25,576 nucleotides of DNA from a virus. The stretch spans positions 1 through 25,576 of the IMG/VR virus record IMGVR_UViG_3300023184_003440. The stretch is one strand, 5' to 3'. Both the position numbers and the translations under genes were made by a program. A model generated the notes under the pieces. It was given only the letters and a program-made list of their open reading frames with translations, was not told the origin of the DNA and did not search any database. Of the stretch, positions 5,633 to 25,576 are shown one piece after another. How positions within the stretch are numbered: the stretch's first letter is position 1; each line of letters starts with the position of its first letter.

Positions 5633-6296
5633 CTCTCATTAATTTATATAAATCATTATTAATTGCATTTATAAAGTCATCGCATACCCATTGAACTTTA
5701 TCTTCACCAACTTGATTAACCATTGGTAAATATAAATTATGCATTGCAATACCAACACCATGGGGTGGGTTTGTTTCCATTTCTACAATTGCATCTATTA
5801 GATTTTGGGTCATAGAATGTGGAAATACTATAAATGTATCATTCACAATTGGTAAATTGGTAAATTCCGGTTCTCTCCATAAAAAGTTACATTTAGTAAA
5901 ATCATATTGATATTCCTTAAAAGGGTTCTTAAAAAAGTTAATATCAAATCTGGTTGATATTATTAAATCCAAATTGGATTTTAATAATTGTCTCAAACTA
6001 CTGATATATGCAGCTGAAATCATTTTTATTCCATTGGGTAATTTGTCACCACCACCATATCCATTATAATTTGGATGCATAAATTCTGATTTTACTACCG
6101 GTGAATATGCTTCTATTATTTTATCTTTTTTAGTACTATCGTATGTAAAAATATAAAAAGAAATTTCATGTCCTTCTTCTTTTAGTGGATTAATAATATT
6201 TGACATAAATCCATCAAGCGCATCTTCAAAATTTCTATATCTACCAATTGTTCCATCATTATATGAAACACCTACTAAATTAATTCCTATTTTCAT
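5625..6296 (-). CDS. Putative glycosyltransferase-like protein (RFD motif)
   Basis: This is a 223-residue protein. The N terminus MKIGINLVGVSYNDG looks like the first strand of a nucleotide-binding fold. LIISTRFDINFFKNP (residues 111-125) carries R116-F-D118, matching the RSRYD of the gene at 7891-8553; the two appear to be distant members of one family often found in surface-polysaccharide loci. A late segment VCDDFINAI may supply acidic residues. The catalytic mechanism is not recognisable, and the transferase call leans on context. The start lies 17 bases inside the GNAT gene that precedes it. Confidence 0.5.
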   Translation of the reverse strand: MKIGINLVGVSYNDGTIGRYRNFEDALDGFMSNIINPLKEEGHEISFYIFTYDSTKKDKIIEAYSPVVKSEFMHPNYNGYGGGDKLPNGIKMISAAYISSLRQLLKSNLDLIISTRFDINFFKNPFKEYQYDFTKCNFLWREPEFTNLPIVNDTFIVFPHSMTQNLIDAIVEMETNPPHGVGIAMHNLYLPMVNQVGEDKVQWVCDDFINAINNDLYKLMRDE

Positions 6297-6699
6297 AAAT
6301 CATTTCTATGTATTCTCTATCTCTGATTATTTTAGAATTTCCATTTTCGACAAATCCTAATTCAGTATAAAGATTTTTAGCAAAATTATCAACAAATACC
6401 CAAAGTGATGCGTAATTTTTATCTTTCAAATAAAGTTTATAAGCTTCCCTTGCATACCCCATTCTCCTATGTTTTGGATGAATGTCCATACCAACTATAT
6501 CACCGGTTGTTCTAATATATCCAACGGGCTCATGATTTATTTCAATTATATACCAAATTGGATTTGTTTTAGTAAACCATTCAATACAACCTTCTAATGT
6601 AAATACCGAATCATTTTCTAAATTCACTCTTGTTGTTATATCATTTCTAACTTCCAATAAGAATGGTAAATCCAATTCATTCAATCTGCGTAATATCAT
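6280..6699 (-). CDS. GNAT-family N-acetyltransferase, probable sugar N-acetyltransferase
   Basis: The protein has 139 residues from the chosen start. IVGMDIHPKHRRMGYAREAYK contains the GNAT acetyl-CoA loop (R-R-x-G-Y-A) after a beta strand, and SLWVFVDNFAKNLYTELGF is the usual C-terminal N-x-x-x-x-x-x-Y-x-x-x-G-F signature. The likely reaction is transfer of acetyl (or a related acyl group) from acetyl-CoA to an amine. It follows the aminotransferase gene directly, so the likely substrate is the amino group installed by that enzyme, giving an acetamido sugar; this is inference from pairing. I chose the ATG at 6699 because it forms a TAATG with the aminotransferase stop; in-frame ATGs at 6705 and 6720 would add only 2 or 7 residues. 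Confidence 0.75.
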   Translation of the reverse strand: MILRRLNELDLPFLLEVRNDITTRVNLENDSVFTLEGCIEWFTKTNPIWYIIEINHEPVGYIRTTGDIVGMDIHPKHRRMGYAREAYKLYLKDKNYASLWVFVDNFAKNLYTELGFVENGNSKIIRDREYIEMIYENRN

Positions 6700-7889
6700 T
6701 ACCATCCTTTTTTGATACAATCAACAATATATTGTCTTTCTTCATCGGTTATCCACCAACCCACTGGTATAGAAACTACTTTTGGTAATACTCTATCTAA
6801 TGTTGGTAAAGGACTTCTGAATTCTTTTACTGCGGTATGTTTATCGTTTCTTTCATGTACCTGTGATACTACAATTCCACAATCTTTCATATGTTTGTAG
6901 AATCCATCTCTATTTTCAATTAATAAACTATAAATCCAAAATGCCGAATTGTGGTCTGGTTTTCTTTGTAATAAGGTTACACCATTTACACCTTTCAAAT
7001 TTTCATCATAGAATTTAGCATTTGCTCTATGTTTGCCAATAATGGTTTCAGCATCTTTTAGGTTCTCCATACCCACAGTCGCACATACATCGTTCATATG
7101 GAATTTGAAACCCCACTCAACAATATCTGCTTCACAACGAAAATCTTTTCTATTACCACCTCTATCAATACCATACCAACGAATTAGTTTTGCTCTATTA
7201 TATAATTCCTGATGTGGTAATATCAATAATCCACCATCTATTGCCGTAATGTGTTTAATTGCCTGTAAGGAATACATAACCATATTACCATGATTACCTA
7301 ACTTCTTTCCTTTATATTCCGAACCGAATGAATGTGCACCATCTTCAATAATTGCAGGTCTAAATCCATACAATTCAAATGACTTATCTTGTATCTTTTT
7401 CAATCTATCTAAATCCAAAGGATATCCTCCCCAATGTACCGCAATGATTGCTTTTGTTTTTGGTGTGATTTTTCTTTCTAAATCATCCAAATCCATATTA
7501 AGAGTTTTCTCATCAATATCAACCCATTTGATTTTTAATCCGTTTGCAAGTATGGGCCAGTTTGATGCGGTACAAGTTAATGCGGTTGCAAGAACTTCGT
7601 CACCATCTTTAAGACCCGGCCAATTCCTTTCAATAACCGAATAACCATCTGCTGTTACAGAATTAGATGATTTTTTTAATAAATGTAATGCCAAATGTAA
7701 TCCTGATGTTCCCGAATTCAATGTTACTACTCTATCCGAATTGAAATATTCATTTAATTTTTCTTCAAACTCATCTACTTTTGGGCCTTGTCCAATATAA
7801 CCACTATCTAATATTTTACCAACTTCTATTTTAGCGTTGGGATTCATATGTACTTTGAATAGTTGAATCGGTGTGTTTATTTTTTTCAT
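6699..7889 (-). CDS. DegT/DnrJ/EryC1/StrS-family PLP sugar aminotransferase
   Basis: This 396-residue protein is full length for the family. GYIGQGPKVDEFE (residues 30-42) is the usual N-terminal signature. LNSGTSGLHLALHLL (57-71) holds the phosphate-binding GTS, IIEDGAHSFGSEYKGKKLG (180-198) carries D183 and H186 beside the cofactor ring, and SLQAIKHITAIDGG (207-220) supplies K212, the PLP lysine. These enzymes transaminate keto-sugar nucleotides with glutamate or glutamine as amino donor. The GNAT gene follows in the same operon. No dehydratase to make the keto-sugar is visible in the window, so its substrate would come from the host or from elsewhere in the phage genome. The gene starts just after the stop of the upstream transferase-like gene. 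Confidence 0.9.
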   Translation of the reverse strand: MKKINTPIQLFKVHMNPNAKIEVGKILDSGYIGQGPKVDEFEEKLNEYFNSDRVVTLNSGTSGLHLALHLLKKSSNSVTADGYSVIERNWPGLKDGDEVLATALTCTASNWPILANGLKIKWVDIDEKTLNMDLDDLERKITPKTKAIIAVHWGGYPLDLDRLKKIQDKSFELYGFRPAIIEDGAHSFGSEYKGKKLGNHGNMVMYSLQAIKHITAIDGGLLILPHQELYNRAKLIRWYGIDRGGNRKDFRCEADIVEWGFKFHMNDVCATVGMENLKDAETIIGKHRANAKFYDENLKGVNGVTLLQRKPDHNSAFWIYSLLIENRDGFYKHMKDCGIVVSQVHERNDKHTAVKEFRSPLPTLDRVLPKVVSIPVGWWITDEERQYIVDCIKKGW

Positions 7890-7890
7890 A

Positions 7891-8553
7891 TTAATACCAT
7901 AATTTATTTTCTCTTAATAATTGAAAAGGTAATTCATTTGTTTTGACTGTATCATTAAATAAACCTTTTCTTTCTAATATTTCCGTAAAATTTTTTTCTG
8001 CAAAATTTATAATTCCTGTTGATTTTATATGTGCAACAAATTCATTAAATATGTTTTTGAATATTTTATAAGAATTTGATTGATTTGTTATACATAGGTT
8101 ATCATCAAAAATAGGTTTTCCTGGCCAATGAATACCTGATGTATTTACTTTTGTTAAGTCTAAATTTTCTAATTTAATTGGATTGATTGTACCTACATCA
8201 TATCTACTTCTAATAATACATTCATAATCACCTTCAATCAAATTATATCCAGTTTGCCAACTATAAAACATAGGTAATGCTCTAAAATTTCCAGCAACAT
8301 CATATTGTTCCAATGGTCTGGACATATCATCATTTGGTGATACCACACCATAACGATATTCGGTGAATTTGAATGGAATTTCTTTTATAAACTTTTTTGG
8401 ATTATAAATTTCTAATACTTTCTCATATTCTTCATCTTCCCAAAAGTGTAAATATACATCGGTATCATAATTTTCAATTATATGTTTCCAATAATTTTCA
8501 TACCCTTCTTCTACTTTTCTAGGTAATCCCGTTAATAATAATGCTACTTTCAT
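7891..8553 (-). CDS. Putative glycosyltransferase-like protein (RSRYD motif)
   Basis: This is a 220-residue protein. The N terminus KVALLLTGLPRKVEEGYENYW (from residue 2) and ECIIRSRYDV (111-120) are characteristic of a family I associate with capsule and lipopolysaccharide loci and with some giant viruses. The R-x-R-x-D unit aligns with TRFD in the gene at 5625-6296. A defined enzymatic activity is not known to me. It lies between the GDPD-like gene, which it overlaps by ATGA, and the aminotransferase. It is therefore inside the sugar-modification core and probably acts on the same glycan. Confidence 0.55.
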   Translation of the reverse strand: MKVALLLTGLPRKVEEGYENYWKHIIENYDTDVYLHFWEDEEYEKVLEIYNPKKFIKEIPFKFTEYRYGVVSPNDDMSRPLEQYDVAGNFRALPMFYSWQTGYNLIEGDYECIIRSRYDVGTINPIKLENLDLTKVNTSGIHWPGKPIFDDNLCITNQSNSYKIFKNIFNEFVAHIKSTGIINFAEKNFTEILERKGLFNDTVKTNELPFQLLRENKLWY

Positions 8554-8984
8554 TTATAATCATTTATATAATCTGAACAAATTCCAATACAATTATCCAA
8601 ATTATCATTATAAATTTCAGGCATAACCGCAATACTTCCTTTAATTGGTTGTTTGCCAGGATATGCCCAAACTACATTCATTGACGTAAGTGTCAATGTG
8701 TCTCCTTCATGCCAAAAATAATGATAACTATTAAGCATATTAAACCATTCCACAGCTTCTATATTTTTACAATGTATCCATAAATGTTGTAATCTTTCAC
8801 TAAACCAATGTTGTGAAACACCATATTGTGGAATATCATGTCCTAAAAATAATTGACCTTCTACCATCCATACATCTATTTCAACATCAAATCCTTCACC
8901 AATTGCCTTATCAATATAATTGGGTTCGTTTTCGTATGATTCAAATTTTCCGTTTGTGTTTCCTCTATGTGATATTAGTATCAT
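8550..8984 (-). CDS. GDPD/PI-PLC-like phosphodiesterase, minimal form
   Basis: The protein has 144 residues. ISHRGN (residues 4-9, H6), FDVEIDVW (32-39, E35 and D37) and LGHD (47-50, H49) reproduce the metal and acid-base residues of glycerophosphodiester phosphodiesterases. It is far shorter than typical GDPD enzymes (about 240 residues or more) and ends GICSDYIND. Short proteins of this kind are familiar next to sugar nucleotidyltransferases and HAD phosphatases in bacterial polysaccharide loci, the arrangement found here, but no activity has been established for them as far as I know. Possible roles are hydrolysis or transfer of a glycerol-phosphate-type substituent. ATGA overlaps on both sides couple it to its neighbours. 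Confidence 0.75.
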   Translation of the reverse strand: MILISHRGNTNGKFESYENEPNYIDKAIGEGFDVEIDVWMVEGQLFLGHDIPQYGVSQHWFSERLQHLWIHCKNIEAVEWFNMLNSYHYFWHEGDTLTLTSMNVVWAYPGKQPIKGSIAVMPEIYNDNLDNCIGICSDYINDYK

Positions 8985-10345
8985 TTCTTATTTTCTAAAT
9001 AATAGTTCAAATCTTCTGGTGTACCCAATCCCCACATCTTATCAATGTTGAATGTTTTAATTTTTTTACCATCTCCAATTGCTTCATTGAAAGTTGGACA
9101 AGTATAAAACTCATTATTGGTTCTGATATTCTTTTCAATCATTTGTTCTGCGTATTTTACATAGTCTGAACCTTTAGCCCAATAGTAAACACCAACAGTT
9201 GCGATATCTGAAATCGGATTCTTCTCTGCTACTTCCGTTACATAACCATATTCATCTACTTTAGCGAATGACCATTTTGGGTGTGTTGCTTTGAATGTTA
9301 AAATACCACCATCTACTTTTTGTTCAATCATCTTATACATAAACTCATTACTATCCCACTCTACAAATTGGTCAGAGTTTGCCATAACTAATGGTTGGTC
9401 GTTGTCAATGTATTCTTTTGCTAACAAAGTAGTACACGCAGCACCTTCCGTAATACCATCTACTTCCACAATCTTACAATTTGGAGTGATTAAGTTAAGT
9501 AATGTATCTAAATTATATTTTGCTCTATGTTCTTTTTGAACTACATAGATAAATATTGCATCTATATTAAGATTGTCAACTACAACTTGTATCATTGGTT
9601 TTCCTTCCACATCAATTAGAGGTTTGGGGAATGTGTAACCTGCTGTTGCAAATCGGCTTCCAGCTCCTGCCATTGGGATAAGTACATTCATCTTACCACC
9701 TTGCCATTTTGGTATATTCATAGTATTTTGTGTTTCATCTAATTTACGAATAATTTTTGATATTACCAAATCTTTTGGAGAATCGACTCTCAAAACATTT
9801 GCTCTACTTCTACTTGCTGCCAAAAGTCCGTGTGGTGAGTCCTCTACGATTAAAGTTTCTTCAGGTAATACACCCATCATACTCATAGACTTCCAATACA
9901 TTTCAGGATGCGGTTTAGAGTTCTTTACATCCTCATTAGAGATGATTAAATCCATATACTCAATTATACCTATCTTAGCCAACATAACCAATACTGACCT
10001 TCTAATTGAGTTTGAAGCACATGCTAACTTATACCCCATATCTCTCAATTCCTTAAACAATTCAATCTTTTCTAAATCGGGTTGTAATTGTGAAATAGCT
10101 TCTATCGTTAGGTGTTGCTTTCTATACCAAATATCATCATAGAATTCTGGGTGCAATCCTTTATTTTTTGTAAGTAGTTCTAATTTTTGAGTTGTCTTTA
10201 ATCCATCATATATTGAAAGATGTTCAGCTTCGGTAATTACATACTTATCATCAATTTCTTTTAGAGCTTGATTTAATGTATCGTAGTGTATTTGTTTTGC
10301 TTCAACTAGTACACCATCTAAGTCAAAGATAATTAATTTTGTCAT
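8981..10345 (-). CDS. HAD phosphatase / sugar-phosphate nucleotidyltransferase fusion
   Basis: This 454-residue protein has two domains. Residues 1 to about 200 are a HAD phosphatase: motif I DLDGVL (8-13), a C-A-S-N-S motif II, K-P-H-P near 144, and a VEDSPHG motif IV. Residues 219-454 are a nucleotidyltransferase of the capsule (BcbE-like) type: PMAGAGSRF, the KPLIDVEGKPMIQ segment and a late W-G-L-G-T-P-E-D. The pair could dephosphorylate and then activate a sugar phosphate, or work on consecutive steps of one NDP-sugar pathway; the sugar is unknown. I chose the ATG at 10345, which makes TAATG with the previous stop, over an in-frame ATG 21 bases earlier. A promoter-like site (9739-9770) and an ATG (9721) fall in the linker. 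Confidence 0.85.
   Translation of the reverse strand: MTKLIIFDLDGVLVEAKQIHYDTLNQALKEIDDKYVITEAEHLSIYDGLKTTQKLELLTKNKGLHPEFYDDIWYRKQHLTIEAISQLQPDLEKIELFKELRDMGYKLACASNSIRRSVLVMLAKIGIIEYMDLIISNEDVKNSKPHPEMYWKSMSMMGVLPEETLIVEDSPHGLLAASRSRANVLRVDSPKDLVISKIIRKLDETQNTMNIPKWQGGKMNVLIPMAGAGSRFATAGYTFPKPLIDVEGKPMIQVVVDNLNIDAIFIYVVQKEHRAKYNLDTLLNLITPNCKIVEVDGITEGAACTTLLAKEYIDNDQPLVMANSDQFVEWDSNEFMYKMIEQKVDGGILTFKATHPKWSFAKVDEYGYVTEVAEKNPISDIATVGVYYWAKGSDYVKYAEQMIEKNIRTNNEFYTCPTFNEAIGDGKKIKTFNIDKMWGLGTPEDLNYYLENKK
9739..9770 (-). promoter_or_regulatory. Internal promoter-like element in the HAD-nucleotidyltransferase linker
   Basis: Read on the minus strand this is TTTGGTA, exactly 17 bases, then TAAATTAG. 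Box 1 and spacing match the three best intergenic promoters, and box 2 differs at one base. An in-frame ATG at 9721 follows 17 bases later and would start a 246-residue protein holding the whole nucleotidyltransferase domain. The site overlaps codons for D-L-V-I-S-K and R-K-L-D. Chance occurrence in A/T-rich coding sequence is possible. Confidence 0.4.
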
Positions 10346-11097
10346 TATTTTCCGTATTTTTGCCAATCATTATGTTTGAATAACCCTTCACCATGTGCAA
10401 CACCAAATTCTTGTTCGGCCCACCATTTACTAATATTACCTTCCAATGCAATTCCATCTCCTGCAAATTGTCTAACTGTTTCTAAATAAAAATCTTTCTT
10501 ATACATTGTTGGGTTATTAGTCCAATTACCCCAACGAGATGTTGTTATAAAATGTTGTCCTAATTTTTGTATCTTATCTGGAAATTCAACGGATGGGTCT
10601 AACCAATGTAGTGAATCCAATAAGTGCGGTGAGGTACAACCAATTTCATCATCATAATAAGTTAATTCACTGCCTTTATGTCTAAATGAAAAATGTGGAT
10701 TACCTGGTTGTTCTCTATGTCTATATCTAACAGCATTCATACCACATCCATCTAATAACTTAATACCATCTTGCAATCTTTTATATGTTATTTCTCCGTT
10801 CTCTATTAAATTCCAATCATGTTCTAATACTAAAACATTATCGGTTTGTGCATTTTCGGTTAATCTAATAAATGCTTGACCTATTCCGATATTCTTTTGT
10901 AAACCTATGAAATCTAATCCAAAATGTCTTGCAATTTCCATATCTTGTGGTGTTACTTCCTGAAATAGGATAGTCACATCATTTATCATATCGAATAAAC
11001 CATTTTCGTAATATGTAGTTAACGTATCTACTAATACTTGTCCACTGTTCCATGCTAATATCCCTATACTAATTGGTAGTTTTTTTATTTCTTCCAT
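10345..11097 (-). CDS. Putative GT2-like glycosyltransferase
   Basis: This is a 250-residue protein. PISIGILAWNSGQVLVDTL (residues 8-26) is a GT2-style first strand and helix, LQKNIGIGQAFIRL (66-79) resembles the conserved N-x-G-x-G-x-A helix of GT2 enzymes, and NVLVLEHDWNLIENG (87-101) places E92-H-D94 where the DxD normally lies. A tryptophan-rich C-terminal part (W-G-N-W, K-W-W-A-E-Q-E) may bind acceptor. Proteins of this type occur in phages and giant viruses; donor and acceptor are unknown. The gene starts 12 bases inside the CgeB-like gene and hands over to the HAD-nucleotidyltransferase at a TAATG. Confidence 0.65.
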   Translation of the reverse strand: MEEIKKLPISIGILAWNSGQVLVDTLTTYYENGLFDMINDVTILFQEVTPQDMEIARHFGLDFIGLQKNIGIGQAFIRLTENAQTDNVLVLEHDWNLIENGEITYKRLQDGIKLLDGCGMNAVRYRHREQPGNPHFSFRHKGSELTYYDDEIGCTSPHLLDSLHWLDPSVEFPDKIQKLGQHFITTSRWGNWTNNPTMYKKDFYLETVRQFAGDGIALEGNISKWWAEQEFGVAHGEGLFKHNDWQKYGK

Positions 11098-11963
11098 AAT
11101 TCAAATTTTTGTATTAATTTATCTACTACTTGTATTTGTGTGTAATTTGCTATAACTTTTGCCATTCCATTATATGCAATTCTTTCTCTTTCTTCTTCAT
11201 TTTCATTGTAGTAGTTTATCTTTTCTATACAATCAAACATTTCATCATAATAAACGATATCTTCACCATCTATAAACATATCTCTCAATCCTGTTTCTGG
11301 TGGTAAGTTATCGGTTAAAACCATTTTACCACAGGCCATTGCTTCAAATATTCTACGAGTAATTTCTTTCCATCTACTATTTTGAATAACCATTAAACCT
11401 TTATTCAAAAATTCGGTATGTTCTTCTGCGTTCATTCCATTTTGATTTCCAATTGCACCTTCTGCCCAATGAGTAAGATAGTCTAAAAATTCAGAACCAC
11501 CTCTACCTCTACTCGTTACTCCAACATATTCTGGTTCTAAATTCATTGGGAATTGAACCATTGTGTCTGCCCAATGTGGAACCCAGTCTGCATTAATACC
11601 ACATATTTTATATTCTTCGGCTGATACTTTGTCAGGTGTAATTGTGTAATGAAACCGATTTGCTTTTGGATAATTCCTTTCAAAGTTTTGTGGGTCGTCT
11701 CCACTTTCCTGAATCCAAAATGAATTGGGTTTTAAGTTCTTATCCAACCATTTAGAATCAAATCTACCCCAATCCATAAACAATACAACATCGGTTGGTG
11801 TATCTTGTTGAATCCACAATTGTAATGCGGAATCATCACCATTTGGTATTGGAACTATTTCAGTTTCCCAACCTCTTTCTTTGAATTCATTTAACAATGA
11901 TAGTGGTGTTGACCATGTTTCGTTTGGTTTGCAATCGTATATAAATGTTATTTTATTTTGCAT
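11085..11963 (-). CDS. GT-B glycosyltransferase, CgeB-like
   Basis: The protein has 292 residues from the chosen start. The C-terminal half has GLMVIQNSRWKEITRRIFEA (residues 189-208), then MACGKMVLTDNLPPETGL: the N-x-R-x-x-x-x-x-R-x-F-E-A-M-A-C-G pattern typical of CgeB-like GT4 enzymes, where the glutamate contacts the nucleotide-sugar ribose. VPHWAD (128-133) lies in the inter-domain region. It should be a retaining cytoplasmic glycosyltransferase; the sugar is unknown. An ATG at 12071 would add 36 residues that lie wholly inside the upstream gene and look unlike the family. I therefore use the ATG at 11963, which overlaps the upstream stop by 11 bases. Confidence 0.75.
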   Translation of the reverse strand: MQNKITFIYDCKPNETWSTPLSLLNEFKERGWETEIVPIPNGDDSALQLWIQQDTPTDVVLFMDWGRFDSKWLDKNLKPNSFWIQESGDDPQNFERNYPKANRFHYTITPDKVSAEEYKICGINADWVPHWADTMVQFPMNLEPEYVGVTSRGRGGSEFLDYLTHWAEGAIGNQNGMNAEEHTEFLNKGLMVIQNSRWKEITRRIFEAMACGKMVLTDNLPPETGLRDMFIDGEDIVYYDEMFDCIEKINYYNENEEERERIAYNGMAKVIANYTQIQVVDKLIQKFELWKK

Positions 11964-12600
11964 ATTCTTCTCTTTTGAATAAAATTTCATAATGATTTTC
12001 ACCTTCTCTATTATATGATGAATATGGTTTCCAATTTTTCCCCATTTGAATAAACGAATGTTCTGCAGCAAATCTATTATTTCTTTTTACACCATCTAAA
12101 TTTATTGTTTTAGCGTATGATGCTTTCATCCACCAAAAATTACCAGAATATATTTTCCAAGGGCCGGCTTGTCCATATAATGTACCATATGTGTTATATT
12201 CAGTTTTATCAAAAATATTAAATACGTTTTTATTTAATTCTATATTAAAATAATTCATAAGATGTCTCCAACTTATAATATTTTCATATTGTGAGTCGGT
12301 TTGTTTGGAGGCACCCTTTGTATGAATATACAAAATATAATCGGAATCGTCAAATTTTTCTTTATCATTGAAAATTAAATCCAATGTAACAAATTCGTTA
12401 CCACCCGACCTGATATCACGTACTTTTGATTTATCTAATACTTTTAGTATTTCCGATGTTGGTTTATTATCACCCGCAATAGAAATTCCAATATTTAGTG
12501 TGTAAGGAAAATCAAAATGTTTTTCTATTAAAGAAAATTGTTCATTTATTATAGATTCAACACCATCGATTGCATATATGTGATAATATATGTGTACCAT
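11953..12600 (-). CDS. Putative glycosyltransferase with HTKG motif (rhamnan synthesis F-like)
   Basis: This is a 215-residue protein. DYILYIHTKGASK (residues 87-99), followed by an S-W-R (110-112) and KIYSGNFWWMKASYAKTI (149-166), is the layout of a group of polysaccharide-locus proteins, including RgpF-type rhamnan synthesis proteins, in which a H-T-K-G loop and a Y-S-G-N-F-W-W strand are conserved. These are generally treated as glycosyltransferases. The call is by motif only, and the substrate is unknown. It follows the GT2 gene with a 1-base overlap and overlaps the CgeB-like gene by 11 bases. Confidence 0.6.
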   Translation of the reverse strand: MVHIYYHIYAIDGVESIINEQFSLIEKHFDFPYTLNIGISIAGDNKPTSEILKVLDKSKVRDIRSGGNEFVTLDLIFNDKEKFDDSDYILYIHTKGASKQTDSQYENIISWRHLMNYFNIELNKNVFNIFDKTEYNTYGTLYGQAGPWKIYSGNFWWMKASYAKTINLDGVKRNNRFAAEHSFIQMGKNWKPYSSYNREGENHYEILFKREEYAK

Positions 12601-13223
12601 TATAAAGTGTCGTAGTAATTATTTTGTCTTTCTTGTCTTTCAATTGTTTTAGGATGTCTAATACAATATATTTCATCTGCTGGAAATGATGTGTATGATT
12701 CAAAGCCAACAATTCTTTCATGTACTTTATTCATCCAACCAATTTTGTCAGAGTTTTTATAAATACGAGTTTGAACATCTGGGAAATTTACCCAACCTTT
12801 TTCGTTTACATTCCATCCCCATTTTTGAATATGTGTGTCGGTCAATCCTTCAACTGTATTGATTCTTGGAACAACAATCATATCCTTATCGGTATTTGTA
12901 TCTAATAGAGATTCCATATTTACAATCAAATCTGGTTCTAAATATTCATCGGCATCTAACTGAAATATCCACTCACCTTTACATTGTGAGTTTAATAGAT
13001 TTTTCCATTGTGCAAAATCATTATTAAATTCGGATTCAATAAGTGTAATGTGGTCTGCGTTTGCTTGCAATTCCAAATACTCTACTAATTCTATTGGAGC
13101 TTTTGGTAAATCTAAAAGGACTACTATTTCTGAATTTTCCTCTTTATAATTTAATAATTGTCCTACTAATCTAATCGTTTCTTCGACTTCATTACAAGCC
13201 GTTATTGCGTAACTTAATTTCAT
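12600..13223 (-). CDS. GT2-family glycosyltransferase
   Basis: The protein has 207 residues from the chosen start. KLSYAITACNEVEETIRLV is the N-terminal strand-helix of GT2 enzymes, N-D-F-A-Q-W-K-N sits in the expected N-x-G-x-x-x-x-N position, and GEWIFQLDADEYLEPDLI (residues 83-100) carries the metal-binding D90-A-D92 followed by E93. The C-terminal part W-M-N-K-V-H-E-R matches the acceptor region of the WaaE/KdtX-like group, which adds sugars to lipopolysaccharide core; this is a resemblance, not a firm assignment. I chose the ATG at 13223, which makes TAATG with the previous gene. An in-frame ATG at 13259 would add 12 residues overlapping that gene. Confidence 0.8.
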   Translation of the reverse strand: MKLSYAITACNEVEETIRLVGQLLNYKEENSEIVVLLDLPKAPIELVEYLELQANADHITLIESEFNNDFAQWKNLLNSQCKGEWIFQLDADEYLEPDLIVNMESLLDTNTDKDMIVVPRINTVEGLTDTHIQKWGWNVNEKGWVNFPDVQTRIYKNSDKIGWMNKVHERIVGFESYTSFPADEIYCIRHPKTIERQERQNNYYDTL

Positions 13224-13531
13224 TAAAATATTTTTTTGTTGGATGTTGTATAACTCCATGCAGAACCACTAGGATATCCATAAGCAGTTGATGTACTTCC
13301 AAATCCAAATGGTGGATTAGTTATTGTAATAGAACTAACACCAGGTGTTGTTGTTATTGTTGTTCCCGTTGGTGTTCCAAATGGAAATTTTGGTGATTCA
13401 AGAATTAATACTTTATCCTCTACTTCTGCTAACTTTTCTTTTAATATATCCCATTGTTTTGGAGTAATATTAAATTCGTGTACTCCCTCTGTGAATCCTT
13501 TTAACCAAAGGACAAATTCGTTTGATGTCAT
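13223..13531 (-). CDS. Small phage protein with glycine/threonine-rich tail, unknown function
   Basis: This is a 102-residue protein. Residues 1-40 (MTSNEFVLWLKGFTEG, then P-K-Q-W-D-I-L-K-E-K-L) form a compact helical unit that recurs in many tailed phages, in my experience as a small unassigned protein. Residues 45-97 are low complexity, rich in G, T, S, P and Y (TPTGTTITTTPGV and so on), and look disordered or fibrous. There is no signal peptide or membrane segment. It and the next gene upstream interrupt the glycosyltransferase genes. A possible late-promoter octamer AATAAATA lies 9 bases before its ATG at 13541-13548. Confidence 0.65.
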   Translation of the reverse strand: MTSNEFVLWLKGFTEGVHEFNITPKQWDILKEKLAEVEDKVLILESPKFPFGTPTGTTITTTPGVSSITITNPPFGFGSTSTAYGYPSGSAWSYTTSNKKIF

Positions 13532-13539
13532 AACTGTTT

Positions 13540-14019
13540 TTATTTATTTTGTACTTGATACCTTTCATTAATACCTTCAATATGGTCTCTTGTTGATGTA
13601 AATCCTGGAATATTCATATTCAGTTCAAATGCTTTATCAATTCCTGATAATTTATAAGTTCTATATGCACCATCTACAACCGTAGGAAATTTAGAAATAA
13701 CCGTTTCATATGTTTTTCTAGCTGTTCCTGATAATTCAATTTCGTGAGTAGCATCGTTTGTAAGTTTATGTAATACTCTTTTTAATAACGATGGGTTTAT
13801 TGCACTTAATTTTATACAATGTACTATATCTTTTGATTTGGATACAAATAATGTAAATATGAGTGGTGCGTCCATTGTTCCATATGTTTCCTTAATACCA
13901 TCAACATTTTCATATTGAGATATTTGATAAAATGTTGATTTGACCATTGTTACGGATGGCACTTTTTGTTTAGAAACGATATGAGATAGATATCTCGCAT
14001 TGTAATTTCTATTTATCAT
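13540..14019 (-). CDS. Conserved phage protein of unknown function
   Basis: This is a 159-residue soluble protein. APLIFTLFVSKSKDIVHCIK (residues 51-70) and LKRVLHKLTND (79-89) look like a small family of T4-like phages of aquatic bacteria. Many such proteins sit among replication or structural genes, but I cannot identify a domain and assign no function. The C terminus ends N-K before TAA. The gene starts 2 bases after the stop of the large GT-B gene, so it is probably co-transcribed with it. Confidence 0.65.
   Translation of the reverse strand: MINRNYNARYLSHIVSKQKVPSVTMVKSTFYQISQYENVDGIKETYGTMDAPLIFTLFVSKSKDIVHCIKLSAINPSLLKRVLHKLTNDATHEIELSGTARKTYETVISKFPTVVDGAYRTYKLSGIDKAFELNMNIPGFTSTRDHIEGINERYQVQNK
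13541..13548 (-). promoter_or_regulatory. Possible T4-type late promoter octamer
   Basis: The minus strand reads AATAAATA, ending 9 bases before the ATG at 13531. It fits the NATAAATA form of late promoters reported for T4-like cyanophages. It overlaps the last codons and stop of the upstream gene (AAT AAA TAA), so the match could simply reflect an N-K-stop ending in A/T-rich sequence. Confidence 0.25.
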
Positions 14020-14021
14020 TT

Positions 14022-15290
14022 TTATTTATTTAACATTTTTAATTTTGGTAATTGTAACTGTTGAAATTTGGGTTGCATCTTAGTATAAATACCATATTGT
14101 GTTAAAATGGTATCAAATAATTTAGTCATTTTTTCTAAACCAAAATTTTGTTTATTATGTTTTCCCAATTGAAATGCTTCTATTTTATATTTGTCATAAT
14201 TCTTATAAACATCCTTTATAGATTGTAATGCTTTTGAAATATTTACATTAAACCATTGTGATTCTTTTAATAAAAATTGGTCTGCTGCAGATTCGTGTAC
14301 CAGTTTTAATTCACCTTCCAATAATACTGCACCTTGTTTTAAGAAATCAATATGGCCGCTCCAATTACTTACTAAAATTGGTTTACCTGTCAAACTGAAT
14401 TCTAATAAAGGTCTACCAAATCCTTCACCTTTTGTAAAGTTTAACATTGCTTTTACTTTTGGATGTTCATATAATCCATTCATTTCTGCAGGAGTTAAAT
14501 CTCCATGTAAAAGATAGATTGGAACTTTTTTATAATCATTGCCCAACACCTCTTTAATTTTTTTAATAGTAGTTTCTCTATCCATTACACTAAATCCCGC
14601 TGAACTAGTTTTAAGAACTAATGCAGGTTTAACCTTTTCGTTTTTGAATGCCATTGCGAATGTTTTAATCATCATTCCCACATTCTTTCTATCTTCACCT
14701 AAATCACCTCTTAACCAATGTCCTACAAATAGAAATGCAAAGTCTTCTTTGATTGAATCTAATTCTGTAATATGTGCAACATGCTCTGTTCCAAAATCCA
14801 TTTCATCAAATCCTTCAAATAAAATTTCTACCGGTTTTTGGATTCTATGTTGTTTTATTAATTGGCCTGTTTGTTGATTTGCTTCATTGTATACGGTATC
14901 TACCAAACTCTTTTTTGAATGTTCGGATGGGACTATAATTAAATCCATTCTATTACAACCATGTACCCAATCTAATGGAGAATGTGTTGTTTCAATTGCT
15001 GCAGTAATACCAATGTTATAATGTCCTAATGGTTGAAATTCATTTGGTACGGTAACCTGAATATAGATGTCAGGCTTTTGTTCAATTTTTGGAATAATAC
15101 TATCCACTACCCACTTATGAAATGGTTTATCATAGTTAAGTGCATCCATTGGAGTTGTTCCCCAACGAGTGCTGATTACTTTAATTTCAAATTTATCTAA
15201 TTTATAAAGAGAATGTAATAAATCTCTCGCGTGGTCACCATATCCACTTCTAGTTGCTACTGGTGCTTGAAATACTAATGTTGGTTTCAT
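14022..15290 (-). CDS. GT-B glycosyltransferase (GT4-like)
   Basis: The protein has 422 residues. The N-terminal domain starts FQAPVATRSGYGDHARDLL, with the glycine-rich loop after the first strand that GT4 enzymes use near the acceptor. LFVGHWLRGDLGEDRKNVG (residues 187-205) opens the C-terminal Rossmann domain. FTKGEGFGRPLLEF (285-298) is the E-G-F-G-x-x-x-x-E element that contacts the donor nucleotide and sugar. It should be a retaining, cytoplasmic transferase; the donor is not predictable. It begins 1 base after the preceding GT-B gene, with which it forms a pair separated from the other transferases by two phage-type genes. Confidence 0.85.
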   Translation of the reverse strand: MKPTLVFQAPVATRSGYGDHARDLLHSLYKLDKFEIKVISTRWGTTPMDALNYDKPFHKWVVDSIIPKIEQKPDIYIQVTVPNEFQPLGHYNIGITAAIETTHSPLDWVHGCNRMDLIIVPSEHSKKSLVDTVYNEANQQTGQLIKQHRIQKPVEILFEGFDEMDFGTEHVAHITELDSIKEDFAFLFVGHWLRGDLGEDRKNVGMMIKTFAMAFKNEKVKPALVLKTSSAGFSVMDRETTIKKIKEVLGNDYKKVPIYLLHGDLTPAEMNGLYEHPKVKAMLNFTKGEGFGRPLLEFSLTGKPILVSNWSGHIDFLKQGAVLLEGELKLVHESAADQFLLKESQWFNVNISKALQSIKDVYKNYDKYKIEAFQLGKHNKQNFGLEKMTKLFDTILTQYGIYTKMQPKFQQLQLPKLKMLNK

Positions 15291-17603: not shown

Positions 17604-17635
17604 CTAATATAAGATAAATTATTGGATTTACCAAA
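17604..17635 (-). promoter_or_regulatory. Promoter for the PD-(D/E)XK nuclease gene
   Basis: The minus strand reads TTTGGTA, 17 bases, TATATTAG, in the gap between the gp62-like and nuclease genes. Both boxes and the spacing are identical to those at 20757-20788 and 24560-24591. The ATG at 17596 lies only 7 bases after the -7 box, so the transcript would be leaderless or nearly so. Confidence 0.7.
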
Positions 17636-18341: not shown

Positions 18342-19289
18342 TTATTTTATAATGTTTAATATTTGTATAATTGTAGACATAAATACAATCTCCTTATCTA
18401 CTACCAATGCATCCTTTGAAAGACCATCTGCAATAGTTAAAATTGTATTTGCCACATTTCCACTTGCGTATTCATCTACCTTTTCGTATAACATTGTATA
18501 CATTTCCGAATAATCATTTAATCTATTGTCAGCTACTGCCTGTCTAATTTTCATAAACATATTTCTCTTATCATCGTCTGCCTTTAATAAGTCAATAAGT
18601 TTAGTTGCAAAGTTTGCTTCAACCATTACTCTATGGTCTACTTTCAATTCACCCTTTGCTGATTGTAATTGACAAGTATTAAGTATTCTTCTAATATCTG
18701 GATAATATGAATTAATCACATCAGCCATATTCTTTGGTTCATACTTAATCTTTTCAGCATCTAATATCTTTGCTACCTGAACTGCTACATCTTTTTTAGT
18801 CGGAGGTGTAATTGCGAAAGATTGACATCTACTTTGGATAGGGTCAATGATTTTCTCAATGTAGTTACAGGTTAAGATAAATCTACAATGTTTACTGAAT
18901 GTTTCCATTAAATTTCTCAAAATCGCTTGTGCTCCCGGTGTCATATAATCAAACTCATCTAAGATGATTACTTTGAAACCTGCAAAACCTACCGATGATG
19001 CAAAGTTTTTAACTTTTGTTCTTACAGTATCCACATTGTTTTCATCCGATGCGTTGATAATCATAAAGTCACATTTGATTGTGTTTACGATTAGTTTAGC
19101 AAGTGTGGTCTTACCCGTACCCGCTTTTCCATACAACAATAAATGTGGTATATCATTTGCATCTAAATATTGCTGAATTGTTTCTTTGATGGTTTCATTA
19201 CCAACATAGTCAGCAAGAGTTTGTGGGCGGTATTTCTCCACCCACAAGCTATGTTCTTTTTTATTGTTTTCGTTTGCGAAAAAACTCAT
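18342..19289 (-). CDS. 44: Clamp-loader ATPase subunit (gp44-like, RFC small-subunit type)
   Basis: The protein has 315 residues, close to T4 gp44 (about 319). EKYRPQTLADYVGNE (residues 18-32) is the standard clamp-loader start, GKAGTGKT (54-61) is Walker A, VIILDEFD (107-114) is Walker B (DEFD rather than DEAD), LTCNY (139-143) is sensor 1, and IQSRCQ (151-156) contains the SRC arginine finger that acts in trans. It is an AAA+ ATPase that opens the gp45 ring and places it on primed DNA together with the small subunit. It starts 1 base after the dUTPase stop and is part of the replication operon. Confidence 0.95.
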   Translation of the reverse strand: MSFFANENNKKEHSLWVEKYRPQTLADYVGNETIKETIQQYLDANDIPHLLLYGKAGTGKTTLAKLIVNTIKCDFMIINASDENNVDTVRTKVKNFASSVGFAGFKVIILDEFDYMTPGAQAILRNLMETFSKHCRFILTCNYIEKIIDPIQSRCQSFAITPPTKKDVAVQVAKILDAEKIKYEPKNMADVINSYYPDIRRILNTCQLQSAKGELKVDHRVMVEANFATKLIDLLKADDDKRNMFMKIRQAVADNRLNDYSEMYTMLYEKVDEYASGNVANTILTIADGLSKDALVVDKEIVFMSTIIQILNIIK

Positions 19290-20756: not shown

Positions 20757-20788
20757 CTAATATACGACTAATTTTTTATAATACCAAA
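20757..20788 (-). promoter_or_regulatory. Promoter for the sliding-clamp gene
   Basis: The minus strand reads TTTGGTA, 17 bases, TATATTAG, in the 50-base gap between the polymerase and clamp genes. Both boxes and the spacing equal those at 17604-17635 and 24560-24591. It would allow the clamp, dUTPase and clamp-loader genes to be transcribed independently of the polymerase. Confidence 0.7.
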
Positions 20789-23344
20789 TTAAAATGCAAA
20801 AAACTTCTTTGCGGTTTTTGTATCTGCGGTAACTTTATCCCACTTTAATGCGTTATAAAAGTCATCTAATTTGTTTTCTAATTCTGCTTCAAATATTTTG
20901 TTTCTATCTACATATGTTTCCACAAAATCCATAATTTCCTTTGGGTCATTATAATCTTTGAATGCAACTGTTTCTAATCCTAATGGGTTGTCTTTAAGAT
21001 ATACCCACTTTACTTTATCACCATCTCTAATTGGTTCATGCTTATATGGACAATTGAAGAATTTTAATAATCTATTGTATGTTATTCCGGCTTTAACGTG
21101 TGCAGGTGTTCCTTTCTCAAAGTTTGCTACTGCGTCACCTGTTTTCCAACTACCATTATCATACTTACTCAATTCCTTTAATGCTCCACCTTTTGCGATT
21201 GTATTTACAGGTAGTGTTGGTAAACTTTTCTTAAAGGTCAATAGAGTATCATCAATATAATCATGTCCTTTACCCATTAAGATATCTTTCAACATTGTCG
21301 ACATAAACTTTTGAAATGCTTTTGGGAATGAACTTCTAACTACATCCAATCCTTTCACATCTAATTTGTCACATGGTATTCCGTTTTTCAAAATCATCCA
21401 TTGTGCGTATCGTTTCTTTGCTACCCAAAATCCTGCTTTACTGATATATTCCTTTTTAATCTCAAATCTATGTTTGTCTTTTGGAATAAAGAAAAATCTC
21501 TCTGCCAATAAGTCGTAGAATGAATTTAAGAATGTTTGTGTTTCGGTTGCAATATTGTCTACCTCAACTGCCATTCTTTTCTCATCAAATGTCTTATATT
21601 CTGGGTATCTATGTTTTACCAAAGGTTCTGCCATCATATAAATTGAGTCGGTATCAATATAAACATTGTAGTCATCGGTTGTTCCCAATTCTTTCCAATA
21701 TTTTCTATTTGCCATTTCAGCCGTCTTTTTAATTACGACTTGTCCTGTTAGTGTCACTGCTTCAGCATTATCCACATCATAGAAACGAAATGCGGGTAGA
21801 CCTAATACACCATACATTGAGTTCAAAAGGATTTTCTGAACGTGTTGTCTCTTACCATAGAACTCATATAATTCAGTATTTTTTTCCTCACCATATTTCT
21901 TTTCCAATTTACGATATTCAACTCTTTTGTTAAACCATGTATTTAGAATGTCCGCAATCAAACCTGGTTTATCTTGCATATAAAGAACTCCATTAGCTGC
22001 TACACCTAATTGACTATCTTTAATAACATCTGCTAATTCCTGACGGTTATATTCGTACTCATCACCATCCTTACCCTTCAACTTATATATAACTTCCTCA
22101 CCTTTGATATATTGTTCTGCATCCCAATTTGAAATCTTACCAACCTTTGTTTCAGGTGAGATATTTAATGTCATAATGATTGATGGGTATAGAGATGTTA
22201 AATCCAAATCATATATCCAATCATACTTTCCAACGATAGGTTCTTTCACATATGCTCCAATAAACTTCTCTTGGTCGTTATCTCTTAAAGCTTGCATCCT
22301 TTCTCTCCTATCTGCAGGTTTGTTTGTTGCAACCATGTTTTTAGTTTTAAGGTATGCTAAACATGCACCTTCTAACCATTTTGACGAAAACATATAATCT
22401 TCGTAAGGAACATAACCAGCGTGACATATAGCTCGACATAAATCTATAAACTTCAACTTCTCATCCATTGCTACCACTAAGTCCACATCGACAATGTTAT
22501 ACTCAATAAATTTTTCTAAATCATTTACGAATAGGTCATCCAAACTTCCTTCATACTCAACCTTACCTCTACCCAATTCTTTTGTTGCGATGTGGTTTAG
22601 AGTGTATGCTGACTCCAATCCAAAGTTATATTGTTTGTATAGACTGATGTAGTCCAAAATAGATACTCCACCGAATGTCCACTTCTCTCTATAAGGGGAA
22701 TAGAAACATTGTCCTATTCTAGAAAGTCTTTTTGCATGACCTTCACCACATACATTTTTAATACGATTGTAAAGGTATGGAATATCAAAGAAATCTATGT
22801 TCCATCCCGTAAGAATAGTTGGGTCAATTTCCTCGTAATAATTAAGGAAAGCAAGTAAGAGATTTTTCTCGTTATCGAAAACGTGAAGGTTAACCTCTCT
22901 CCCATCTTTGCTAAATGTTTTTGCATTATTTTTTACTGTTTTGTCTTTATCTAATACGAATACATCATAAAGTTTTGTTGCTCCATCATGTGCAGCAATT
23001 GCTGTTAATTCGTTTTGTGCTTCTCGTGTGTTTGGAAGTCCTGTAATCATTTCAACCTCAATGTCAAAAGTCAATACTCTATGTCCTGTTGAGGGTATAT
23101 CACTATTGTAAATATCTACTAATACTCTTGTTGTTTCTGGAACATCACTTTCAAATAAGTCATTTGCTTCATCCTTTTCCCACTTTGAAATACGACTTAG
23201 TTTGTCACCATTCATTGAAAGATGTTCTCCATGTGGGTCTTTCTTATATGCATACTTTCGGTATGGCATTGTTTGATACCCGTTTTTGTCATCCCAAAGA
23301 TGCATTAAATTCTTTTGTCTCTCGTAATAAATGTTTTGATACAT
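20789..23344 (-). CDS. 43: Family-B DNA polymerase (gp43-like) with 3'-5' exonuclease
   Basis: The protein has 851 residues (T4 gp43 has 898). Exonuclease motifs: Exo I FDIEVE (93-98, D94 and E96), Exo II GWNIDFFDIPYL (180-191, D184), Exo III YNIVDVDLV (282-290, D286). Polymerase motifs: A DLTSLYPSII (381-390), B KILLNSMYG (504-512), C YIDTDS (562-567, D564 and D566). All catalytic residues are present, so both proofreading and synthesis should be active. It copies the phage genome together with the gp45 clamp and gp44/gp62 loader encoded downstream. The gene follows the DUF4338-like gene by 8 bases and lacks a promoter of the shared type, so it is probably read from 24560-24591. Confidence 0.97.
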   Translation of the reverse strand: MYQNIYYERQKNLMHLWDDKNGYQTMPYRKYAYKKDPHGEHLSMNGDKLSRISKWEKDEANDLFESDVPETTRVLVDIYNSDIPSTGHRVLTFDIEVEMITGLPNTREAQNELTAIAAHDGATKLYDVFVLDKDKTVKNNAKTFSKDGREVNLHVFDNEKNLLLAFLNYYEEIDPTILTGWNIDFFDIPYLYNRIKNVCGEGHAKRLSRIGQCFYSPYREKWTFGGVSILDYISLYKQYNFGLESAYTLNHIATKELGRGKVEYEGSLDDLFVNDLEKFIEYNIVDVDLVVAMDEKLKFIDLCRAICHAGYVPYEDYMFSSKWLEGACLAYLKTKNMVATNKPADRRERMQALRDNDQEKFIGAYVKEPIVGKYDWIYDLDLTSLYPSIIMTLNISPETKVGKISNWDAEQYIKGEEVIYKLKGKDGDEYEYNRQELADVIKDSQLGVAANGVLYMQDKPGLIADILNTWFNKRVEYRKLEKKYGEEKNTELYEFYGKRQHVQKILLNSMYGVLGLPAFRFYDVDNAEAVTLTGQVVIKKTAEMANRKYWKELGTTDDYNVYIDTDSIYMMAEPLVKHRYPEYKTFDEKRMAVEVDNIATETQTFLNSFYDLLAERFFFIPKDKHRFEIKKEYISKAGFWVAKKRYAQWMILKNGIPCDKLDVKGLDVVRSSFPKAFQKFMSTMLKDILMGKGHDYIDDTLLTFKKSLPTLPVNTIAKGGALKELSKYDNGSWKTGDAVANFEKGTPAHVKAGITYNRLLKFFNCPYKHEPIRDGDKVKWVYLKDNPLGLETVAFKDYNDPKEIMDFVETYVDRNKIFEAELENKLDDFYNALKWDKVTADTKTAKKFFAF

Positions 23345-23352
23345 ATGTTATT

Positions 23353-24555
23353 TTATCTACCCACGTCTGCTAAAAATTTGTCTTTCATTTCCTCCCAAGT
23401 TAAACCAATTGCGTCTGCATAGAATAACTTTTCTGGTTTCAATCTACCTTCTTCATGCAATTTAGAATATCTCTTTATTGCTTTTTCTTTCCACCATTTG
23501 ATTGTATATTCGTCACCTTGTACAAACTTTGGTTTCATTATTAATTTATCCTCATCAATTTTAGAACATAGATAATCATTACCATTCTCATACATTGGTG
23601 CAAAATATACACCTCTCTTAAATCCGTGATGGTATGTATCGTTTTTAATTCCTAACTCTTTGAATATTTGTCCTAATATCTTTTGTTTAACACCACTAAC
23701 TGGGCCGGACTTATCTGCAGATGCTTCTTCAATTTGAGTTTTATACCAATCAGCTTTATTCTCTTGTAACCAATGATGCCATACATCGTAGTATTTGTCA
23801 TCAGGTTTGATACTGATTTTACCTTTACTTTCCCCTAATGTTTTGAAATGTGGAATACCATTGTATTGTGAATGAATACCATATAATGATGTTGTTCCAA
23901 CTGCTACTAATGTATTTTTGTATTTATCTTTCCACTCTTGTCTAAATGTGGGTGAGGTTGTCAATGCTGATACCAACTTACCACCTAAGAAATTATATCC
24001 TAATGGTTGAGTCGCAATGATTGATGTTCCGATTGCCGTACAGTTTAATTTGCCACCATTGAATTTGTCCTCTTTTGTCCAACCAATAAATTCATCTCTA
24101 ACTCCCAACGATGTGATATCACTACCTAAACTGATAACACCCAATATCTTACCACTTACTCTATCTTTTACATAACCCTTAACATTACGACCTGGGTTTG
24201 CTGTAAATTCCATTGAGGAAATCAACTTTCTAACATATGTCCAACGGGTTGCTTCATCACCTTCTCCAACTAATTCAACATAAGGTTGCATTTCTTGGAT
24301 TTCTTTAATTGTTCCCTCTTTGTCTAATAAGTCTTTCGGTTGCCAAATCTTATCGTATTGTTGATGAAGTGCCGGCAGTAATTTCATACTTGCATGCAAA
24401 TCTTCATTCCACTCTAACCACTTTTTATAAAGGGTTTGCTCTTGCACCGACATAGTAAATAAGTAATCCAAGTTTTCAATTAACTCTCTCTTATTTCTTT
24501 CAAAATCAAATGCGTCTGTCTTTTTTATTTCTGTTCCTGTGTCCCAAAATTTCAT
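23353..24555 (-). CDS. DUF4338-like protein of unknown function
   Basis: This is a 400-residue soluble protein. Its core, residues 105-245 (YVRKLISSMEFTANPGRNVK; GKILGVISLGSDITSLGVRD; LNCTAIGTSIIATQPLGYNF; LVAVGTTSLYG), has the order and spacing of the DUF4338 family, which includes DruA of the Druantia anti-phage system. I recall the family only by pattern, so the assignment needs a profile search. The C-terminal part contains a W-W-K-E-K segment and many charged helices. It lies between the Mom-like pair and the polymerase. It could act on DNA, but no catalytic residues can be named. It has a promoter 4 bases upstream of its ATG (24560-24591), implying a leaderless mRNA. Confidence 0.5.
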   Translation of the reverse strand: MKFWDTGTEIKKTDAFDFERNKRELIENLDYLFTMSVQEQTLYKKWLEWNEDLHASMKLLPALHQQYDKIWQPKDLLDKEGTIKEIQEMQPYVELVGEGDEATRWTYVRKLISSMEFTANPGRNVKGYVKDRVSGKILGVISLGSDITSLGVRDEFIGWTKEDKFNGGKLNCTAIGTSIIATQPLGYNFLGGKLVSALTTSPTFRQEWKDKYKNTLVAVGTTSLYGIHSQYNGIPHFKTLGESKGKISIKPDDKYYDVWHHWLQENKADWYKTQIEEASADKSGPVSGVKQKILGQIFKELGIKNDTYHHGFKRGVYFAPMYENGNDYLCSKIDEDKLIMKPKFVQGDEYTIKWWKEKAIKRYSKLHEEGRLKPEKLFYADAIGLTWEEMKDKFLADVGR

Positions 24556-24559: not shown

Positions 24560-24591
24560 CTAATATACTTAAATTATTTGATATTACCAAA
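24560..24591 (-). promoter_or_regulatory. Promoter for the DUF4338-like and polymerase genes
   Basis: The minus strand reads TTTGGTA, 17 bases, TATATTAG, overlapping the 3' end of the Mom-like gene. It is identical in both boxes and spacing to the sites before the clamp and nuclease genes. Only 4 bases separate the -7 box from the ATG at 24555, so transcription probably starts at or beside the start codon. Confidence 0.7.
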
Positions 24592-25387
24592 ACTTTGTCT
24601 TAATGTCAGTTTCGGGTTCTATCGTTGTATGATGTTGAATTGCTTTGTTAAATTCCTGTGTATTTTTAGGATAAGGTCTAATTTCGTGTTTTAATCGTTT
24701 CTTTAGGTCTTTCTTTTCCTTTTTGTCCTCACCTATAATTTGTATGTATCTATGTTTTGGTGGTTCTTCCCTTCTCCAAAACTCTTTATAACCATCCTTC
24801 CCAATTGCTGCTCTTAATGCTTCTAAATTACCACTACCCCACATAGAGAAAACCGTTCTACTATGTATCCATTTGTAAGGGTCATTTGATAAAGATATTC
24901 CGTAATTTGGCATCAATGCGATGTCAGTATTCATTCCTTGATAAATCCAGTTTGTTGCCTGATAAATACCTCCCAAATGTTCTTGTCCGTTGTCTGCGTA
25001 TGATATTAAAACTTTGATTGCTTTATCATTCTCTCTAAACCATTTGAAAGATTGTCCTAATGCATATGACTCAATGTTTGAACCATACCCATCATCGCAA
25101 TATAATCTTGTTAATTCTAAAATGTTATCTTTTGTTAAACCTTCACAAACCGATGTTGATGCTCTTGCACCTACTGGGAAACCATAAACTAAACATCCTA
25201 TCAATTTATGACTATCACCAACTGCATTTGACTCATCGGTTCTATAAAATATCCCCAATGCGTATCTACAAGCCGTCCATGCGTGCGTATAGTGTTTCTT
25301 TACTATAATCTCTTTTGCAACTGCTGAACTGATTTCTCTAATTGATACTCTGCTCGTATCACAATATAACTTATTTAACTCTTTCAA
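24584..25387 (-). CDS. Mom-like adenine-modification (GNAT-fold) protein, tandem copy 2
   Basis: The protein has 267 residues from a TTG start. VKKHYTHAW (29-37), ILELTRLYCDD (89-99), SNIESYALGQSFKWF (103-117) and ISYADNGQEHLGGIYQATNW (128-147) reproduce the pattern of phage Mu Mom and related proteins: H-Y-x-H, L-x-R-L, S-Y-A-D, H-x-G-x-x-Y-Q-A. Mom proteins convert adenine in DNA to a carbamoylmethyl-adenine that blocks restriction enzymes. The C-terminal 65 residues (F-W-R-R-E-E-P-P-K-H-R-Y and a KKEKKDLKK stretch) are repeated in the truncated gene upstream. No ATG precedes the conserved region in frame, so I accept TTG at 25387, which overlaps the upstream stop by 17 bases. The protein seems intact. 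Confidence 0.75.
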   Translation of the reverse strand: MKELNKLYCDTSRVSIREISSAVAKEIIVKKHYTHAWTACRYALGIFYRTDESNAVGDSHKLIGCLVYGFPVGARASTSVCEGLTKDNILELTRLYCDDGYGSNIESYALGQSFKWFRENDKAIKVLISYADNGQEHLGGIYQATNWIYQGMNTDIALMPNYGISLSNDPYKWIHSRTVFSMWGSGNLEALRAAIGKDGYKEFWRREEPPKHRYIQIIGEDKKEKKDLKKRLKHEIRPYPKNTQEFNKAIQHHTTIEPETDIKTKFW

Positions 25388-25576
25388 TTGGTTCTAATTT
25401 TAATATTTCTTCGGTATATTCCTCTAATGTTTTTGGATATGAATATAGTGGATGTTTTATTCTTTTCAACAATTCCTTTTTATCTTTTTTATCCTTGCCC
25501 AAAATGTAGATATACCTATGTTTCTTTGGTTCTCTCTTTACCCAAAATGGTTTATCAATAAGTTCTTGTAATTTGA
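25371..25576 (-). CDS. Mom-like protein, tandem copy 1, C-terminal fragment cut by window edge
   Basis: The last 67 codons and the TAA stop (25373-25371) are in the window; the rest lies beyond the right edge. The fragment reads K-P-F-W-V-K-R-E-P-K-K-H-R-Y-I-Y-I-L-G, then KDKKDKKELLKR and I-K-H-P. It matches the C terminus of the downstream Mom-like protein nearly residue for residue (F-W-R-R-E-E-P-P-K-H-R-Y-I-Q-I-I-G, then EDKKEKKDLKKR, L-K-H-E). This indicates a tandem duplication. The N-terminal Mom motifs are not visible, so whether copy 1 is intact is unknown. The downstream gene starts inside it, suggesting translational coupling. Confidence 0.7.
   Translation of the reverse strand, partial: KLQELIDKPFWVKREPKKHRYIYILGKDKKDKKELLKRIKHPLYSYPKTLEEYTEEILKLEPIERVK

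Follow-up and report, generated by a model that had tools for sequence, protein, structure and literature searches.

Tandem Mom-like DNA-modification genes in the replication cluster of a T4-like phage lineage

Introduction

Mom is among the least understood phage DNA modifications. Why would a phage carry two of its genes side by side, and do both of them make working enzymes? The question is raised by one end of a viral contig of 25,576 nt (IMG/VR record IMGVR_UViG_3300023184_003440; "the window" designates this whole stretch), where an earlier note, made from the sequence without database searches, described an intact Mom-like gene in tandem with a truncated paralogue, next to T4-type replication genes. 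The features considered here are the following:

18342-19289, minus strand: clamp-loader large subunit (gp44-like), phrog_168, E = 1.2e-84
20789-23344, minus strand: T4-type family B DNA polymerase (PolB), ending in KKFFAF, phrog_262, E = 2.5e-180
23353-24555, minus strand: DruA/DUF4338-family protein of 400 aa, starting MKFWDTG (PF14236, PADLOC, AF2)
24562-24591, minus strand: candidate promoter TTTGG-N19-TATATT (exact match) at the junction of mom2 and the DruA-like gene; the last two codons of mom2 form its -33 box
24584-25387, minus strand: mom2, intact, encoding a 267-aa Mom-family protein (PF25680, phrog_1384, AF2/Foldseek)
25371-25576, minus strand: mom1, the paralogue lying upstream, truncated where the contig stops so that its final 67 residues are present (identified by its identity to Mom2; full in a relative)

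Two members of the Mom family

The assignment of the intact protein to the Mom family, as proposed in the earlier note, is borne out by profile and by fold. Mom2 matches the Pfam Mom profile PF25680 with E = 3.6e-43 and 148 bits (cut-off 27.1), and the PHROGs family phrog_1384 ("Mom-like DNA modification protein") with 160.7 bits and E = 8.3e-47. Its AF2 model (pLDDT 88, with low confidence for the last seven residues) has as top PDB match in Foldseek the phage Mu Mom (8bv8_A, E = 2.1e-14, TM-score on the target 0.71); chains A and B of 8bv8 head the list, other GNATs following with E-values about ten orders of magnitude worse. The Mom variant of the GNAT fold is thus assigned to Mom2 by an AF2 model, and to Mom1 by sequence only. 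The start codon of mom2 is TTG, and ATG in several relatives.

The mom1 and mom2 reading frames overlap by 17 nt in the window, and the Mom1 fragment is 51% identical to residues 201-253 of Mom2 (E = 4.6e-15), so that the C-terminal likeness already noticed in the letters lies far beyond chance. Taken alone, the fragment reaches E = 5.5e-5 with phrog_1384 and 17.2 bits with PF25680, under the cut-off of 27.1. The second gene is nevertheless confirmed as a Mom by its complete counterpart in a relative, L003 (IMGVR_UViG_3300042566_001028, positions 5250-6017 of L003), a protein of 255 aa matching PF25680 with E = 2.2e-43 and 148.7 bits; the profile search therefore recovers Mom2 and the full-length Mom1, but not the window fragment. 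The end of the L003 Mom1 differs from the fragment at one residue in 67, and the L003 Mom2 is 99.6% identical to that of the window. The L003 Mom1 is 47% identical to Mom2, and complete Mom1 proteins in relatives measure about 250-255 aa.

A stable pair among uncultivated relatives

IMG/VR was scanned with Mom2, yielding 273 related stretches of which 80 were kept, and a locus was considered assessable with this query when 900 bp or more of sequence preceded Mom2. An adjacent upstream Mom was found in 56 of 69 assessable loci, with a gap of -17, -14 or +4 nt between the two genes for 54 of the 56 pairs. With Mom1 as the query, a Mom lies downstream in 59 of 70 loci, some spacers reaching 160-800 bp; the two locus sets overlap, and not all loci are independent. 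Large contigs (70-245 kb) harbor exactly two Mom genes in 11 cases out of 12, and one in the other. The two genes are stably paired in a large uncultivated group of related viruses. An assembly duplicate of a single gene was considered and rejected, the copies being ~45-50% identical and recurring in many contigs.

Adjacent Mom1 is missing in 13 of the 69 assessable loci (about one in five), some of which carry a short DruA-like gene there, and the second copy is therefore dispensable in some relatives. A search of 50,697 records of isolate phages matched 256 of them with Mom2 and 313 with Mom1, each at one place, so that the pair goes unseen in cultured phages at that search sensitivity.

Copy number may also exceed two. 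A third, more distant Mom is present elsewhere in L005, L011, L013 and L020, and L246-L248 carry three Moms in a row. In some relatives, a distinct third Mom type of ~200 aa lies upstream, near a replicative helicase gene (L011:727-1326, L013:1307-1906, L027:786-1424, L049:2018-2647); in other stretches, a Mom sits between polB and a putative clamp gene and is followed by a DruA-like gene (L205:2639-3253, L213:1872-2483), and in the Acidobacteriota MAG OFTM328, three contigs each carry a Mom-like locus (L334, L335, L336).

Both copies are old and keep the Mom residues

In an alignment of 79 Moms including that of Mu, Ser124 of Mu (Ser107 in Mom2, Ser109 in Mom1) is invariant in 79 of 79 sequences, as are Mu H58, Y59, E108, R111, N121, Y159 and N163, corresponding to H32, Y33, E91, R94, N104, Y142 and N146 of Mom2. 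The PDB title of 8bv8, "phage Mu protein Mom inactive mutant S124A", concerns this same serine. Published Mom active-site residues are numbered ten lower, and we take them to sit on these same invariant columns. A further sixteen columns, with conservation of 90% or more among the Mom1 and among the Mom2 sequences, nevertheless differ between the two copies, a pattern that fits divided function.

Both copies are under purifying selection, with dN/dS of 0.09-0.14 for Mom1 and 0.02-0.12 for Mom2, next to 0.08 for polB; the idea of a decaying second copy was dropped, as the gene is intact and so constrained. In the tree, Mom2 forms one strong clade (support 100/98) with the Mom1 copies outside it; the Mom1 grouping is moderately supported (83/97), with side branches falling outside, and the nearest isolate outgroup is the Mom of a Polaribacter phage. 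The duplication is old, and its products have been kept together.

Replication genes, a DruA-like neighbour and the probable host

The T4-type replication setting read by eye in the earlier note holds in profile searches, which identify PolB and the clamp loader as listed above; the window PolB is 48.5% identical to that of Microcystis phage Mel-JY01. The 237-aa gene after polB was considered as the sliding clamp by position only, and it falls in a PHROGs family of unknown function. The usual gene order in relatives is thioredoxin, a small HTH gene, Mom1 and Mom2, with other genes sometimes inserted; the HTH gene (65-77 aa) overlaps the mom1 start in many relatives, and the DruA-like gene and polB come after Mom2 in the nearest kin of the window. 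Further along the minus strand, 3197-15290 is an extended series of genes with a probable link to glycans (glycosyltransferase-like ORFs, a DegT aminotransferase, a HAD and nucleotidyltransferase fusion), and 1178-1624 holds an APS-kinase-like gene (PF01583, E = 5e-15).

The DruA-like protein matches PF14236 (E = 3e-19, 69.7 bits, cut-off 27) and the PADLOC DruA model (E = 1.4e-19). Its AF2 model (pLDDT 85) finds mainly GNAT-fold enzymes in the PDB, weakly (best Foldseek E = 4e-3), and the protein is predicted to have a GNAT fold, in agreement with the previous description of DUF4338 as a GNAT domain (PMC10853773). Could it be a divergent Mom, as one cyanophage record suggests by labelling a homologue "methylcarbamoylase mom"? 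This was rejected: hhalign gave a probability of 0.6% (with thin profiles) and 8bv8 is outside the top 50 PDB matches, which are mainly general GNATs, so that the fold is that of a GNAT and the protein is not a Mom. DruA-like proteins have also been noted in Synechococcus phages (PMC12774648). In some relatives, a short DruA/DUF4338 gene (~243-251 aa) directly precedes Mom1 (L003:4519-5250, and L006), which brings the number of consecutive GNAT-fold genes at this locus to as many as four; elsewhere a short gene of this family replaces Mom1 before Mom2 (L026, L028 at 5274-6029, and L030).

The candidate promoter between mom2 and the DruA-like gene recurs as TTTGG-N19-TATATT at 20759-20788 and 17606-17635 of the window (minus strand). 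Only exact sites are counted, because counts are near chance once mismatches are allowed. On the coding strand of the related genome G001, 13 promoter-like sites have a spacing of exactly 19, against 0-3 at other spacings. The known Bacteroidota promoter is TTTG-N19-TAnnTTTG, and this likeness, together with the Polaribacter phage relative, suggests that the hosts are Bacteroidota.

The C termini and the terminal Phe-Trp

The earlier note had regarded the shared C terminus as an extension outside the Mom core, possibly a DNA-binding or partner-binding module, a reading that must be abandoned: the PF25680 profile reaches its last position at residue 241 of Mom2, and the end of Mu Mom itself (QYRYIRFL...RARKRL...PYPK) aligns with the KHRY motif and Lys-rich helix of both copies, so the part common to the two copies belongs to the Mom core, as its ordinary C terminus. 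What is extra is a stretch of roughly 25-30 residues after PYPK, differing between the copies. Mom1 ends around EIxKLEPI, with no [FY]W terminus. The Mom2 tail is acidic, probably disordered, and ends in [FY]W after a variable linker in all 29 representatives, the window Mom2 ending Lys-Phe-Trp in the low-confidence part of the model.

In G001, a terminal FW is found in 4 of 202 ORFs (Mom2, DruA-like, glycosyltransferase-like and lipase-like), all confined to a block of five successive genes around polB; chance would bring four genes so close together about once in 100,000 times, a figure that overstates the weight of the pattern because it was computed after FW had been noticed in the same genes. 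An N-terminal FW is also seen in unrelated genes around polB (L014:8083, L014:11760, L015:8662, and the DruA-like genes), in starts such as MNFWESIDY, MKGLKFWK, MNKFWDSE and MKFWDTG.

Is this a peptide signal or a DNA signal? The TTT-TGG codons of the Mom2 end constitute the promoter -33 box in 11 of 29 representatives, window included, and the terminal Phe codon is TTT in 27 of 27 (76 of 77 in genes starting with FW), vs about 65% elsewhere in the same genes. The terminal FW is thus conserved partly at the DNA level, which weakens a pure peptide signal; the peptide reading survives, since the 18 representatives that lack the promoter there still end in [FY]W. A docking peptide is in consequence a hypothesis with a real confounder, the FW codons doubling as a TTT-biased -33 box.

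Why are two copies kept?

According to the explanation that we favor, with a probability of roughly 0.7, the locus encodes two paralogous, catalytically competent Mom enzymes, whose frames overlap, and belongs to the replication cluster of a T4-like phage lineage that probably infects Bacteroidota. Like Mu Mom, each enzyme would attach a carbamoylmethyl (glycinamide-type) group to N6 of adenine in the phage genome, and many host restriction enzymes would then be unable to cut; blocking restriction in this way is, from the analysis, the most likely role of both proteins. The duplicates would persist through divided work, most likely by target-sequence context, the next possibility being a heterodimer of two active subunits; sequence contexts, precursor groups and a hetero-oligomer had all been put forward in the earlier note as possible reasons. 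Counting against this explanation are the low identity to Mu Mom (26%), the ease with which GNATs shift substrate, the loci that lack an adjacent Mom1 and the moderate support for the Mom1 grouping. With the catalytic Ser retained in Mom1 and Mom2 alike and a Mom structure that is dimeric, such a heterodimer is possible (Mom, 8bv8 and PHROG 1384, has been treated as a dimer, with an AF-Multimer ipTM of 0.88; PMC13232217). In its obligate form, each partner giving a different half of the DNA-binding surface, it would agree with the differences fixed between the copies and with the frequent 14-17 nt overlaps, which favor equal production; we consider it unlikely, however, as Mom2 appears able to work alone, given the loci without adjacent Mom1 and the pairs spaced 160-800 bp apart. 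Similar odds apply to a second copy that only supplies more enzyme of the same specificity, bringing modification over a protection threshold before the DNA is cleaved. There is a precedent in T4, which withstands restriction only if glucosylation exceeds about 80% and for which having a second glucosyltransferase makes a difference only when defences are combined (PMC13216743), but copies that are only 42-47% identical, old and with fixed differences would not be kept distinct by dosage alone.

A somewhat more doubtful proposal, which can be compatible with the favored explanation, is that the Phe-Trp tail of Mom2, absent in Mom1, docks on a replisome hub such as the sliding clamp, one Mom working at the fork and the other elsewhere. 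T4 gp43, gp55 and gp33 bind the clamp via hydrophobic acidic C termini, carried by a divergent linker in gp55 (PMC2988020), T4 alpha-glucosyltransferase co-purifies with gp45 (PMC13216743), and the only four terminal-FW genes of G001 are neighbours. Against this stand the promoter overlap and codon bias described above, and the T4 motif is not identical; the clamp contact is moreover not the main cause of alpha-glucosylation dominance in T4 (PMC13216743). PolB here ends in FFAF and not FW, and a gp55 homologue, sought for comparison of clamp tails, was not found. It is a little less probable again that the whole locus forms a replication-coupled module, in which two active Moms and one or two DruA-family GNATs, produced as a block beside the polymerase, would dock on a common replisome hub by short aromatic terminal peptides (the C-terminal FW of Mom2, the N-terminal FW of the DruA-like protein and its neighbours), modify adenines as they are copied, and split contexts or host defences between them. 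The GNAT fold is a versatile one, and after Mu Mom the structures closest to Mom2 are those of other GNATs; one or both Moms might then be ordinary GNAT acyltransferases acting on something else, e.g., a host protein or tRNA. This we hold to be very improbable, since the residues found in nearly all Moms, among them the Ser that is mutated in inactive Mu Mom, are present in both copies, and the setting is a DNA replication cluster.

Comparison with known systems

The isolate examples of Mom found here are all single genes. An old, conserved pair of active-looking Moms in a widespread lineage offers a natural test of what sets the sequence choice of Mom. It also bears on the joint use of modifying enzymes by phages facing more than one host nuclease, of which the two glucosyltransferases of T4 are a recent example. 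Beside this DNA-modification pair, moreover, the phages carry a GNAT of the DruA family, which is known from bacterial defence.

With Mu Mom (8bv8; PF25680), this lineage shares the GNAT-type fold, Ser124 and the other near-universal residues, and the end running from QYRY/KHRY through a Lys/Arg-rich helix to PYPK, at 26% identity; the tails after PYPK are extra relative to Mu Mom. Mu has a single mom gene regulated by the zinc-finger protein Com, whereas there are two copies about 47% identical here. The HTH gene overlapping the mom1 start gives a layout reminiscent of Mu com-mom, and a profile search for Com (PF10122) in five relatives gave no match, nor did its positive control.

Among isolates, the closest relative is a Mom-like protein (YP_009209713) encoded by Polaribacter phage P12002L and sharing 42-44% identity with each copy; this 49-kb phage, named for its Bacteroidota host, has one Mom copy, adjoining a DNA methyltransferase gene. 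Jumbo phages are also large phages with members of the family, but their Mom domains are typically fused to a restriction-endonuclease fold (PMC7824862), while those described here are stand-alone and duplicated. T4 likewise maintains two enzymes that modify DNA, its alpha- and beta-glucosyltransferases (PMC13216743), although these act on hydroxymethylcytosine and are not tandem Mom paralogues. Finally, the gene downstream of mom2 belongs to the same family as DruA of Druantia type I (DUF4338, PF14236), but here it resides in a phage and adjoins Mom, the scanned neighbours being replication or unrelated genes among which no other Druantia gene was identified.
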